From Isoetes taiwanensis (taxonomy: Eukaryota; Streptophyta; Lycopodiopsida; Isoetales; Isoetaceae), in assembly GCA_021234155.1 (NCBI GenBank), contig JAJEKV010000034.1, forward strand, positions 15,052,671-15,116,670: 64,000 bases of DNA, written 5' to 3'. The stretch's first letter is position 1. Each line of letters opens with the position of its first letter. The position numbers were made by a program, and so were the translations under genes. The notes under the pieces are model-generated. The model had not been told where the DNA came from, ran no database searches, and worked only from the letters and a program-made list of their open reading frames with translations. Positions 43,774-64,000 of this stretch are shown in pieces.

Positions 43774-44552
43774 TACAAGTATTTGTACTATAAGGAGTGT
43801 ATCAAGTCGACTGGTCGCTTACTAAAAAGTCAAAGTCAAAGTTGCAGTCACAGTGAAATAAAAAAGGCATATCAGTAGCTAAAAGTGTAGTTACTCTTGG
43901 CATAGTTATCATCTTAACTGTTTTTATTCAATGGGCATCCATTCCTGGTATCAGCGTCCGGAGTGTCTTTGGCTCAGATAAGTCGAATTCAATGTCTTCT
44001 CTACCAAGTACCATAAGCGTATTTGTTGAACAGCCTACAGAAAATGCATCCACACACTCTTGCAACCTATTGAAATTATGAATGTAACTCGTTATATTCC
44101 TAATCATCTCAACTGGAAGCCCAATTCCTTCAATTAGAAAGCTAAGGATCCCAAACAACTGTCAGCGTGCAGAATAATTTGACAACTTGGTGAGTATTCT
44201 GCCAGATAACTTCTTTGACCATGTGCTCCCTTGATTGTTGAAAAAGAGAGAACCCATAAATTGAGGTTCTGTGCCAACAACCTTGGGTGCACCGTTCAAC
44301 TGGCCAACATCAACAATGCTATTTCTTCATTTACACACGAGCTTTTATTTCACATTCTAGCCATTCGCTGACCTTCATTATTGAAGATTTGGATAGAAAT
44401 TATAGGCATGAGCATAAAGTTGATTTACTATTTAATTGTTGTGTTGTTTGACTTTCCTGCTTTACAAAAGTATATCTATCCACATTTGTTATCTATGTAG
44501 AAATGTGTGTGCTTGACGTACAAAAAACTTGTCTAGCAAAATGTATAAGTTG

Positions 44553-47500
44553 ACTTAGGTAAATCGAATGCAAGGTTTCCTTGAGCAACCACTTTCTCAA
44601 AATGATTTAAAGAATACATTATATTGTATGGGATGTAAGGCATTAAATGTGTGTTAAATAAAAAAATACATGATAATGAGCTCACTCTCAATGTAGTTGG
44701 TTTAGGATGGAACAGGAGATTTTTAATGACCAAGTTCAAAAATCGATAGAATGTCAAATCTAACATTGCACAATGCAAAGACTTACTTCCATGAACTCTA
44801 AGTTAGGAGCAAAATAGAACGAGATCAAGCATATAGTATAATATCTTGGCATCAAACTACGTTAATTGTTCCGGCAAATAGAGATATATCCGAGGAGGAA
44901 GTTCCGTCTAGTTCCAACTCTAGTCCAATATTCGATGAAAGACACGCTATTCTTTCTAATGCAATTAAGCTTTATTTGCGGTTAGAATTTATGAATTGTT
45001 AATATAATATGGTCTTCTTCTTTTAGAGATTCTAGTAACACGTAATGCAAGCAAGCCTTTTGTATTTTTCAATGCGTGTTAAATTGTCCAACATTCAATA
45101 ATGTAAAGCTTGTTTAATAACGGATTTGCGCCAATTTGAACATCAAGATTTGAACGCGAGGCACAAGTGACATCATGAGAAAATCAAGAATAAAAATGAC
45201 CTCTTGGGTTGGGCTAATCAAGTATGGAAAAACTTTGCAAGTCGCTACGTCTTTGAATAAGTAGACGTTTATTAACAAAACCCTTTACTCAACATGTTTA
45301 AGAGGACCATAAATTGCTACAACAAATAGAACAGACATGGAAATGCTTAGTTGCTTTCTAATACATCTTTTGAGGATTATGGGCCAACCTACCATGTAAT
45401 AAAGTTTCACAGGTAATGCAAAACCATGTGCAATGGCTCCAAGTCTCCCAATAGCCATAAGAAAATAAGCCAAGCGAGCATGTAAAATGGGACAACATGG
45501 TGGTCAGAAGATGCCTCAACACAGAAAAACTACACGGAGAAAACACTGCTCAACAGTTCACTCATAAAACAATATAAGTTAAACTTTTCTTCTCATGCCA
45601 CCAAATAAAATAACCAATTTCGAATAGAAGATAAAGCAAGAAAGAAGCCACTGTGGACATGCTTTCCTTACCATTAATTACTCGGTTATGTATTCAACTT
45701 GACAAGAAAACACATGCAAACCTTAGAAACCAATTTTATGCATGACTAAGAAGTTTACAGAATGTGTTGTATATTCCAATGTACCAACATAAACAAATGC
45801 ATCGCAAGTATTTAGGATGATTTCTACACAAATTTAGTACACCATGCACACTTGACGTATACAACATGAACATGGCCAAAATACTCATAACTTTACTAAG
45901 CTTGGAGATGTGAACAGTTCTATCATTAGTCAACACAACCAGCTAGTCTTTGCTTACTCTTTTTCTACACTACGAAAGAAGGGGCAGGGAAAAAGATTAC
46001 CTCAAGCATGTATATCCCAAGCAAAACTATGCTCAAGAAGAAAAATATTCGGTCTCAAGTGAAAAGGGAACATTGAAGTAGGAACAACAAACACCTGATA
46101 TTCATTCAGCATGCAAAAATGATGAGGGACTAGAACTAAAATATCAAGATTACACTCAGATATTTAACTCAAAACATAAAATAAGGCTGGTTGTTAAATA
46201 AATACCATACCTAAGGTTGCCAATAGTTCCAGCAGCGCTTCCACAAGCTTTATTCATCTGAGAACAACTTAGGTAAATCGAATGCAAGGTTTCCTTGAGC
46301 AACCACTTTCTCAAAATGATTTAAAGAATCTGTTATATTGTATGGGATGTAAGGCATTAAATGTGTGTTAAATAAAAAAAATACATGATAATGAGCTCAC
46401 TCTCAATGTAGTTGGTTTAGGATGGAACCGGAGATTTAATGAGATTTCTTTTCAATGTGTGTTCCGTTGACCAAGTGCAAAAATCCTGATAGAATGTCAA
46501 ATCTTGCACAATGCAAAGACTTACTTCCATGAACTCTAAGTTAGGAGCAAAATAGAACGAGATCAAGCATATAGTATAATATCTTGGCATCAAACTACGT
46601 TAATTGTTCTGGCAAATAGAGATATCTGAGGAGGAAGTTTTTCGCAAGCTGTTGAAATGACAATGCCGTCTAGGTCCAACTCTAGTCCAATATTCGATGA
46701 AAGACCTGCAATTAAGCTTTATTTGCGGTTAGAATTTATGAATTGTTAATATAATATGGTCTTCTTTTCTTTTAGAGATTGTAGTAACACGTAATGCAAG
46801 CAAGCCTTTGTATTTTTCAATGCGTGTTAAATTGTCCAACATTCAATAATGTAAAGCGATTTGCGCCAATTTGAACATCAAGATTTGAACGCGAGGCACA
46901 AGTGACATCATGAGAAAATCAAGAATAAAAATGACCTCTTGGGTTGGGCTAATCAAGTATGGAAAAACTTTGCAAGCTGCTACGTGCTGAATAAGTAGAC
47001 GTTTATTAACAAAACCCTTTACTCAACATGTTTAAGAGGACCATAAATTGCTAATAGAACAGACATGGAAATGCTTAGTTGCTTTCTAATACATCTTTTG
47101 AGGATTATGGGCCAACCTACCATGTAATAAAGTTTCACAGGTAATGCAAAACCATGTGCAATGGCTCCAAGTCTCCCAATAGCCATAAGAAAATAAGCCA
47201 AGCGAGCATGTAAAATGGGACAACATGGTGGTCAGAAGATGCCTCAACACAGAAAAACTACACGGAGAAAACACTGCTCAACAGTTCACTCATAAAACAA
47301 TATAAGTTAAACTTTTCTTCTCATGCCACCAAATAAAATAACCAATTTCGAATAGAAGATAAAGCAAGAAAGAAGCCACTGTGGACATGCTTTCCTTACC
47401 ATTAATTACTCGGTTATGTATTCAACTTGACAAGAAAACACATGCAAATCTTAGAAACCAATTTTATGACAATGGACTAAGAAGTTTACAGAATGTGTTG

Positions 47501-48022
47501 TATATTCCAATGTACCAACATAAACAAATGCATCGCAAGTATTTAGAATGATTTCTACACAAATTTAGTACACCATGCACACTTGACGTATACAACATGA
47601 ACATGGCCAAAATACTCATAACTTTACTAAGCTTGGAGATGTGAGCAGTTCTATCATTAGTCAACACAACCAGCTAGTCTTTGCTTACTCTTTTTCTACA
47701 CTACGAAAGAAGGGGCAGAGAAAAAGATTACCTCAAGCATGTATATCCCAAGCAAAACTATGCTCAAGAAGAAAAAATATTCGGTCTCAAGTGAAAAGGG
47801 AACATTGAAGTAGGAACAACAAACACCTGATATTCATTCAAAGATGCAAAATGATGTATTAGAACAACAAGGCTTTGACCGGGGACTAGAACTAAAATAT
47901 CAAGATTACACTCGGATATTTAACTCAAAACATAAAATAAGGCTGGTTGTTAAATAAATACCATACCTAAGGTTGCCAATAGTTCAAAGTCAGGCTTCCA
48001 CAAGCTTTATTCATCCGAGAAC
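44553..48022. repeat. Tandem duplication of about 1.7 kb
   Basis: The segment starting ACTTAGGTAAATCGAATGC occurs at 44553-46266 (1714 bases) and again at 46267-48022 (1756 bases), ending CTTTATTCATC(T/C)GAGAAC in both. Copies are nearly identical by eye with a few indels (for example an extra AGATTTCTTTTCAATGTG-like piece near 46443). The paired minus-strand frames of 60-67 codons are duplicated with it. I see no convincing exon, so it may be intronic or Q-side non-coding DNA. Confidence 0.93.
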
Positions 48023-63184: not shown

Positions 63185-63228
63185 TACCAGTCGACTTGAT
63201 ATGCCCCTTGATAGTACAAATACTTGTA
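63185..63228. repeat. Q end of PQ-2 (inverted match to 43774-43814)
   Basis: CCAGTCGACTTGATATGCCCCTTGATAGTACAAATACTTGTA, written in parts: the outer TACAAGTATTTGTACTAT (inverted) is identical to the PQ-1 Q end. The inner part matches except for a few bases (AAGGGGCATATC against AAGGAGTGTATC). It is immediately followed by (TA)n. Confidence 0.85.
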
Positions 63229-63257
63229 TATATATATATATATATCTGTTATATATA
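63229..63257. repeat. (TA)n tract between Q end of PQ-2 and P end of PQ-3
   Basis: Short TA repeat interrupted once by CTGT. It is the shortest of the four (TA)n tracts that mark element borders in this half of the window. Confidence 0.9.
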
Positions 63258-64000
63258 TACAATTATTTGAATCTAGACGCCGAGGTGTCGCCGTCTAGAC
63301 GGTTCAGATTGTGAGATCTGACGGCCGAGAGGAAGCCACGTCATCATCCCCAAGCAACCCACTTAAATTGGGGCTTCTAATCTTAACCCTTGGAATTAGG
63401 GCATTTCATCTGGGCCGTCCATCTCAGATCTGGACGGCCCACGTCAAAAGCCCCAATTTGATTTCTCCATTGAATCTCATCTCACGGTCGACTGTTGTGT
63501 TGTGGCTTTTGCAGGGGTCATCCCCTTCTTATTGATTCGGCAATGGAGCGACTTCTCCGGTCGGTTTGGCCCGCATGCGTTGAAGCGGCGTCAAGATCCT
63601 ATGCCATGCCTTTTTGGCCCGCATGCGTTGAAGCGGCGTCAAGATCCTATGCCATGCCTTTTTTCTTACAGTCTTATATGGCAGAGGTACGACTTGGGGG
63701 CGATTTGGGTTTTCTCTGTACTCTGTTTACATTCGCTTCGACTTTAAGTTTTGGGAGCTGCCCTTGCTCATACCTATGTCCGTAAGGTGACATTGATTTT
63801 GAATTGAGCAGTGGAATTGATTTTGTCTGGGATAAGGCAACAGGCAGTTCTAGAAATGACTGAACCTATCGCTTCGTGCTTTTCCAGGTCAGCGCTTCAA
63901 TAATCGAGATATGCTAGTATACATGCAGTAAAGAGTTCGGCAGTGATAAGGTAATTTTCCTGTCCACAGTGATAAGGTAATTTTTAGGTAATGCTGTAGC
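63258..64000 (+). mobile_element. PQ-3: P end and start of a third element (runs off window)
   Basis: It begins TACAATTATTTGAATCTAGA, then a CCGTCTAGACGG dyad, then the dyad GGCCGTCCA...TGGACGGCC at 63413-63439 identical to that of PQ-2, with TTGGGGCTTCT and AGCCCCAATTT words. A first-exon-like frame follows at 63543. The Q end would lie beyond the window, which is a direct test of the model. Confidence 0.55.
63543..63686 (+). CDS. First-exon candidate with organelle-targeting-like N terminus, internal 48-bp duplication
   Basis: ATG at 63543 opens MERLLRSVWPACVEAASRSY, then the 16-residue block WPACVEAASRSYAMPF is repeated exactly, then FLQSYMAE up to a GAG|GTACGA donor at 63686. Low acidity and Arg, Ser, Ala and Leu enrichment in a potential amphipathic helix resemble a mitochondrial or plastid presequence; this is judged by composition only. 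The duplicated nucleotides are 63566-63613 and 63614-63661, 48 bases, so the frame is kept. The start lies 285 bp inside the P end of PQ-3. The downstream exon and the function are unknown. Confidence 0.45.

Follow-up and report, generated by a model that had tools for sequence, protein, structure and literature searches.

What kind of mobile element has two unlike ends, carries pieces of host genes and stands in rows separated by TA microsatellites? The question is raised by the right-hand part of a 64,000-nucleotide stretch of the Isoetes taiwanensis genome (the window; assembly GCA_021234155.1, contig JAJEKV010000034.1, positions 15,052,671 to 15,116,670, forward strand), where elements with one end of type P and the other of type Q (PQ elements) follow one another. 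We found both ends to be dispersed repeats that bound complete units at several loci, and one such unit to have moved after capturing its cargo. On balance, we lean towards PQ elements being non-canonical, hairpin-less, non-autonomous, gene-capturing Helitron-like elements.

The row of elements in the window

An earlier note on this DNA had described three successive elements. Their order was as described; the third is complete as well, ending outside the window, and has a fourth behind it. With the contig traced beyond the window edge, the row consists of four P..Q elements, of which the following features lie in the window:

43604 to 43775, no strand: (TA)86 on the outer (Q) side of element 1
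43776 to 54311, minus strand: element 1, 10.5 kb, with Q (3' end, ACTTG on the minus strand) at 43776 and P (5' side) at ~54311
44553 to 48023, no strand: direct duplication of ~1.7 kb in element 1, 91% identity
54312 to 54461, no strand: (TA)75, with elements 1 and 2 head to head on either side, their P ends facing it
54462 to 63226, plus strand: element 2, 8.8 kb, with P at 54462 and the Q end ...GTACAAATACTTG at 63226
54493 to 54519, plus strand: P subterminal dyad GGCCGTCCA, arms at 54493 (+) and 54511 (-)
63227 to 63244, no strand: (TA)9 where Q of element 2 meets P of element 3, head to tail
63245 to 64000, plus strand: start of element 3, 5' end TCTGTTATATATATACAATTATTTG, running beyond the window to Q at 71646 (locus L047)

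Element 3 as a whole extends from 63245 to 71646 (8.4 kb; continued window coordinates) and is followed by (TA)62. Element 4 extends from 71771 to 77548 (5.8 kb) and is followed by (TA)86 and then by different DNA.

The Q ends at 43776 (-) and 63226 (+) match in inverted orientation, as the earlier note had seen, with 89% identity over 81 bp that are in part TA. The P ends, the dyads and the TA tracts, (TA)86, (TA)75 and the short (TA)9, were likewise where it had placed them, with P cores at 54302-54311 (-), 54462 (+) and 63260 (+) and the GGCCGTCCA 9-mer recurring at 54116 (-), 54220 (-), 63413 (+) and 63431 (-). The outer limit of P had to be revised: a preserved P end extends ~15 bases further outward, to a 5'-TC, as at 63245 (TCTGTTATATATATACAATTAT). 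The P ends of elements 1 and 2 pass directly from TA to CAATTAT, without this TC module. Among the elements compared, element 1 has only its end regions in common with the others. A perfect 48-base tandem duplication (63565-63663) lies immediately inward of the P end of element 3.

P and Q are dispersed repeats without inverted similarity

The assembly searched comprises 1,658,258,908 bases in 1110 pieces. The Q core GTACAAATACTTGTATATA is present in 328 exact copies, against 0 for the reversed-pattern control, and the P core ATATACRATTATNTRA in 884, against 27, and P and Q are therefore repeats dispersed beyond chance. Similarity searches, whose counts are lower bounds, gave at least 54 matches to a 111-base Q query (best 40 of 813 candidates scored) and at least 45 matches to a 206-base P query (best 40 of 727 candidates scored).

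The short core that P and Q had been thought to share proved no better than chance when local alignments were compared with shuffles. No inverted similarity of P to Q rose above the shuffles (60-bp ends, 10 elements, 500 shuffles each); only L044 scored high, its score being reached by 15 of the 500 shuffles, and this match lay outside the terminal register. We consequently rejected a terminal inverted repeat (TIR) in PQ elements, which thus lack this hallmark of Mutator-like elements (MULEs), itself absent in non-TIR MULEs.

Complete units occur elsewhere and one has moved

Retrieved loci carry L numbers. Complete P..Q units of 5.2-7.8 kb were found in L039-L044, beside the 10.5- and 8.8-kb units of the window, and these sequenced units at several loci bear out the proposal of large, TA-flanked, gene-carrying elements in which unlike P and Q ends are paired repeatedly. 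L039 and L040 had been chosen as both ends were already known, and L043-L046 as two Q ends lay close together; elements 1-4, L041 and L042 were chosen without regard to pairing. Two units of ~1.8 kb, in L045 and L046, have a third P type as their left end (TCATAA.. and TCACTA.., respectively).

Ten complete units (5.2-10.5 kb) were compared and have mainly their ends in common, with similarity reaching inward up to ~250 bp at P and ~35-70 bp at Q (260 in one pair). The exceptions are the copy pair L039/L040, a 1.2-kb piece that element 2 has in common with L039, and a few shorter matches in the interior. The same element is present in L039 and L040 (97.6% identity over 6.0 kb), yet the flanks of the two loci differ; this P..Q unit has therefore moved after capture. 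L018, L019 and L030 are 97.9-98.9% identical over ~1.7 kb inward from P. Furthermore, 20 Q-side pieces include five copy families at 89-99.5% (L053/54/57/68, L056/59, L062/70, L063/66 and L064/65), while most other pairs among them have the last ~35-140 bases in common and some internal pieces at 70-91%. L015 and L016 are 99.9% copies, flanks included.

In the listed coordinates (contigs C1-C202), all seven Q-P neighbours at 300 bp or less stand head to tail; head-to-head P-P and tail-to-tail Q-Q neighbours are also present. Where P lies 0.3-15 kb inward of Q, the two were on the same strand in 13 cases and on opposite strands in 2; with P on the outer side the counts were 14 and 4, some ends counting in several pairs. 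Orientation agrees strongly, yet, the rows being head to tail, inner pairs are no more numerous than outer ones. Pairing was therefore not argued from coordinates alone and rests on the sequenced units. No recognised P was found for the Q of L045 near 6230 or that of L046 near 6705 (within 6.2-6.6 kb), nor for a short piece of Q in L042; in L041 the second Q had just a weak third-type P match (72%), and for the second Q of L043 and of L044 the unit extends beyond the sequence retrieved. Degenerate short repeats (like GAATCTTTATAGAATCTTCATTGG) occupy the interior near several Q ends (L012, L038, L041 at 8150-9290, L033, L044 and others).

Captured gene pieces lie in one sense

Translations with X at stops were searched with Pfam at its curated cut-off. 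Both strands were covered for elements 1 (44500-54000) and 2, for most of element 3, for less than half of element 4, and for L039 (700-4199) and L043 (200-4799), and one strand for L041 (450-6899) and L042 (500-5699); L044-L046 were outside the Pfam coverage. One match over the cut-off, in P-to-Q sense, lies in element 2:

56870 to 57037, plus strand: exon piece of a plastid division regulator ARM repeat, PF25515, E 6e-10

The others are RRM_1 and AMPK1_CBM in element 3, class-II DAHP synthase in L039, and GnT-II (MGAT2) and SOSEKI in L043. All of these (6/6) are in P-to-Q sense; on the opposite strand, no match passed the cut-off in element 2, in L039, in L043 or in what was searched of elements 3 and 4. 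Element 1 (44500-54000) likewise had none on either strand, one weak MutS_IV match below the cut-off lying on the strand opposite to P-to-Q, and the single strand searched of L041 and L042 had none.

The open stretch of the ARM piece starts after TTGCAG and extends to CAG/GTGA, and the DAHP piece is bordered by TTGTAG and AAG/GTGAGG (slashes mark boundaries). These splice-type borders indicate that genomic DNA was captured, and in-frame stops indicate that the DAHP piece has decayed. L039 and L040 also contain what we take to be a REVEILLE/LHY-like MYB piece, named by eye from a motif; the Pfam Myb match in L040 is below the cut-off. Two further frames recognised by eye on the element side of P ends, one hAT-like (L020) and one retroelement-like (L010), are possible cargo.

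Structure of the P and Q ends

External to the P core, the outer module reads TCWGTT, TCAATC, TCTCTT or TCCCTT, followed by ATATATATAC. It varies by P subfamily, at loci with different flanks, and therefore belongs to the element. TC starts 17 of 24 P rows from the retrieved loci (TCTGTT in 8, TCAGTT in 4, TCAATC in 3, TCCCTT and TCTCTT in 1 each) and stands after A in 17/17 of them. Other P types also start with TC, namely TCCTT (L024, L042), TCACTA (L046) and TCATAA (L045). The 5'-TC after A of canonical Helitrons is thus present where the end is preserved, with the TA flanks making the A nearly automatic. TA passes straight into CAATTAT in elements 1 and 2, L043, L044 and L071; the same P types (TATATTG/TATATGG) read TCCTT in L024 and L042, and the missing module may have been lost within the flanking TA. 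At the minus-strand P ends of L018 (1657-1679) and L011 (near 1700) the outer module stands inverted (ATATATAACTGATA..AAGCTGCC), which looks like a flip of the tip. A terminal flip-flop was rejected: the exact flipped form occurs once genome-wide (the pattern excludes L011), and we take it to be a rare rearrangement.

The 3' end of Q reads ...ATAGTACAAATACTTG, then T. When rows were selected on the inner 19 bases alone (at most 3 mismatches), 27 of 28 read ACTTG and then T, L064 being different; most Q loci were retrieved by patterns or matches holding ACTTG, and variants may be missed. In 44 Q ends selected for ACTTG (46 rows initially, L011 and L015 being removed as chance matches) the next bases are TATA in 42 and TGTA in 2.

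TA tracts and insertion sites

A tandem repeat of ~4.6 kb (window 26470-43608; 95-96% between main copies, 86-87% for the last partial copy) adjoins the PQ row, and its last copy forms the left flank of element 1. At the insertion point the three other copies, paralogous to this flank, have only GGATATAT/TCATTG (the point reads GGATATATTCATTGACTTC or nearly so), without a microsatellite, and the first of them is identical to the flank over 80 bases. Since these paralogues carry just TATAT, the growth of (TA)86 most likely took place at or after insertion. On the right, the flank after the final (TA)86 of the row differs, and the short-TA comparison applies to the left side. We therefore rejected this as a complete empty site, the site being half shown.

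The earlier note had predicted empty sites of plain (TA)n; none was found, the one comparable site having just TATAT. BLAST of 30 P-side flanks among the retrieved loci gave no clean empty site among the matches listed, and comparison with the retroelement gag around L010 had no clear outcome. TA adjoins every Q end examined, and TA next to the ends would mask a target-site duplication of 8-11 bp.

Search for the enzyme

Pfam recognised no mobility gene in the PQ interiors searched, and no MULE transposase was found inside the PQ elements examined. Genome-wide, Helitron_like_N gave 1813 first-look candidates, of which 150 were scored, all being over the cut-off, and MULE transposase gave 1020 first-look candidates, of which 150 were scored. 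Within 5 kb of sequence, neither a P or Q end nor (TA)5+ was seen at five MULE loci with long transposase frames, a small sample. L017 (171-1112) contains a MULE transposase-like frame, recognised by eye, and an inverted-repeat-like end that adjoins a P end without TC module. The frame lies outside the P element, and a MULE identity of PQ based on L017 was rejected.

Comparison with Helitrons

PQ elements are most Helitron-like because of their polarity, their TC, insertion before T, unlike ends, common ends around mostly unrelated cargo, sense-biased exon capture and head-to-tail neighbours. They resemble canonical plant Helitrons (Helitron1; the maize gene carriers) in having a 5'-TC after A, a 3' end before T and no inverted ends, in that mainly the termini are common and host exons are carried with introns, and in head-to-tail neighbours and a link to TA (HelA2). 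Excision of the maize Helitron HelA2 leaves TA repeats, according to a passage in PMC10095026 that cites Li and Dooner.

Several observations weigh against a Helitron-like identity. No Rep-helicase (RepHel) gene was found in any PQ interior examined, either by Pfam or by eye in long reading frames from 30 P loci and 20 Q-side pieces. Neither P nor Q was present at the 5' regions of four RepHel genes or at four RepHel 3' regions, a small sample, and downstream of three of the four genes there is a hairpin with CTAG/T. Alignment of 40 distinct Q ends gave no consensus base pair and hence no hairpin ~10 nt before the 3' end; ten canonical Helitron ends gave an 8-bp hairpin (-12.8 kcal/mol) by the same method and, having been picked by hairpin sequence, serve to show that the method detects one. 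Q ends in CTTG, and 0 of 28 rows have CTRR there. Seven of the 24 P rows have no TC at their start (L010, L024, L027, L031, L043, elements 1 and 2), L024 having TCCTT one base further inward. The module is present in 21 of 30 P-query loci (at the outer P copy in four of them, L015, L016, L025 and L026), inverted in 2 and absent from 7. Within (TA)n, an A/T site looks the same as other TA targets or as a target-site duplication concealed by the repeat. Finally, the plant families described as targeting TA repeats, in parts of PMC4486113 and PMC5907723, are MULEs. We did not file PQ under canonical Helitrons because a search of the ends gave neither hairpin nor CTRR and no RepHel was found; a further difference is the TA next to every Q end examined.

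Helitron2/Helentron and non-canonical Fusarium Helitrons have asymmetric ends, like PQ, and some are without a 3' hairpin. According to part of PMC5148889, their terminal inverted repeats are short and asymmetric and their target sites are different, whereas in PQ no inverted match was seen. That some Helitrons have no 3' palindrome is mentioned in a passage of PMC2575219. In the bat element Helraiser, hairpin deletion raises transduction of flanking DNA and yields new 3' ends, as one section of PMC4778049 reports; because of this effect, the loss of the hairpin in PQ fits heavy capture.

The Helitron-like reading, which we consider somewhat better than an even bet, would work as follows. P would be the 5' end (A/TC...) and Q the 3' end (...ATAGTACAAATACTTG/T). 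A Rep-helicase supplied in trans would nick at P, peel a strand towards Q and stop at Q. Having no terminator hairpin, Q may frequently be read through to a new downstream terminus, which would add host DNA, exons and introns alike, in one transcriptional sense. The copy would enter a short TATA site, with A on one side and T on the other, and the TA next to it would expand to (TA)n at or after insertion. New TA tracts may then receive further elements, giving rows of intact units.

That PQ elements form a separate lineage (of rolling-circle type, with a lost hairpin, a CTTG end, one-sense exon capture, TATA turned into long TA tracts, stacked intact units and an enzyme so far linked to none of the described families) is a proposal to which we give about one chance in four. 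The new class suggested by the earlier note is not supported by TA flanks or asymmetric gene capture alone, TA-flanked MULEs (MuTAnT, SaTar) being described and the ends having parallels in canonical Helitrons of the same window and genome. Whether the class is undescribed hinges on the enzyme. A literature search (open-licence papers, supplements aside) found no description of such elements in Isoetes among the papers listed.

Gene capture by Helitrons and the role of the 3' hairpin are debated. As a family with hundreds of ends, sense-oriented gene pieces and no hairpin, PQ would put the role suggested by the Helraiser deletion to a natural test. Stacking in TA repeats, described for MULEs of flowering plants, would also extend to a lycophyte and perhaps to another type of transposon.

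Other explanations

PQ elements might instead be non-TIR, Pack-MULE-like MULEs that target TA repeats, with P and Q as divergent MULE ends and the duplication hidden in (TA)n; we judge this unlikely, at roughly one in five. The lack of inverted similarity between P and Q, the five transposase-bearing MULE loci without P, Q or (TA)5+ and the position of the L017 frame outside the P element all argue against it. Nor, to our knowledge, is either the 5'-TC of divergent P types or capture in one sense a trait of MULEs. MULE transposases are nevertheless abundant in this genome, and MULEs capture genes and include non-TIR forms (in part of PMC13317346). The families that target TA, SaTar (guayule, rice) and MuTAnT (Medicago), resemble PQ in their TA-microsatellite flanks, non-nested rows joined by TA and longer TA at occupied than at empty sites (portions of PMC4486113 and PMC5907723). 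They are mostly small (MuTAnT 90% at 200-300 bp; gSaTar ~400-1700 bp), have inverted ends and, outside microsatellites, show duplications of 9-10 bp, whereas PQ units measure 1.8-10.5 kb, have ends dissimilar to each other and in several cases carry gene pieces. Pack-MULEs and Pack-TYPE elements are, like PQ, non-autonomous carriers of host gene pieces. Inverted ends are their defining trait, and PQ is without them.

Slightly less likely still is a different order of DNA transposon with short CAA...TTG ends and TA targets, to which the TC module would be a secondary addition. Both cores begin with (TA)nCAA, several P ends go straight from (TA)n to CAATTAT (elements 1 and 2, L043, L044, L071) and the interiors examined yielded no enzyme. 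The TC module, however, varies with the P subfamily and recurs amid different flanks, so it moves with the element.

That PQ is immobile, its TA tracts having arisen by chance in DNA that is single-copy or segmentally duplicated, is very improbable: a 4.6-kb tandem duplication does adjoin element 1, and the L015/L016 copies do include their flanks, but there are hundreds of dispersed ends, the L039/L040 element has different flanks, and many pieces have mainly their ends in common.

Canonical Helitrons in the same genome

Canonical Helitrons are abundant in this genome, and the window also contains an apparent one:

22431 to 26381, plus strand: 5' TCTTATATTATAATG; 3' hairpin GCCCAGCAACGCTGGGC, then ATCGTTA and CTAG; (TA)~50 outside each end

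The ends at 22431 and 26381 presumably belong together, which suggests one complete TA-flanked Helitron. Canonical 3' ends (GCCCAGCAACGCTGGGC, ~7 nt, CTAG/T) number six in the window, at ~1306, 3944, 7920, 14648 and 59111 (-) and at 26354-26381 (+), with one more in L029. One of these ends is directly followed by the apparent TC end of another Helitron (~1318). The canonical TC...CTAG/T form is seen at window 22431-26381 and in L078, L079 and L081. In L078 and L079, downstream of RepHel genes, the head-to-tail junction CTAG/TC occurs, and PQ elements likewise stand head to tail. Elsewhere in the window, pyrimidine-rich (CCCTTTT)n and (TC)n stretches occupy 10-178, 4175-5567 and 17649-18028.

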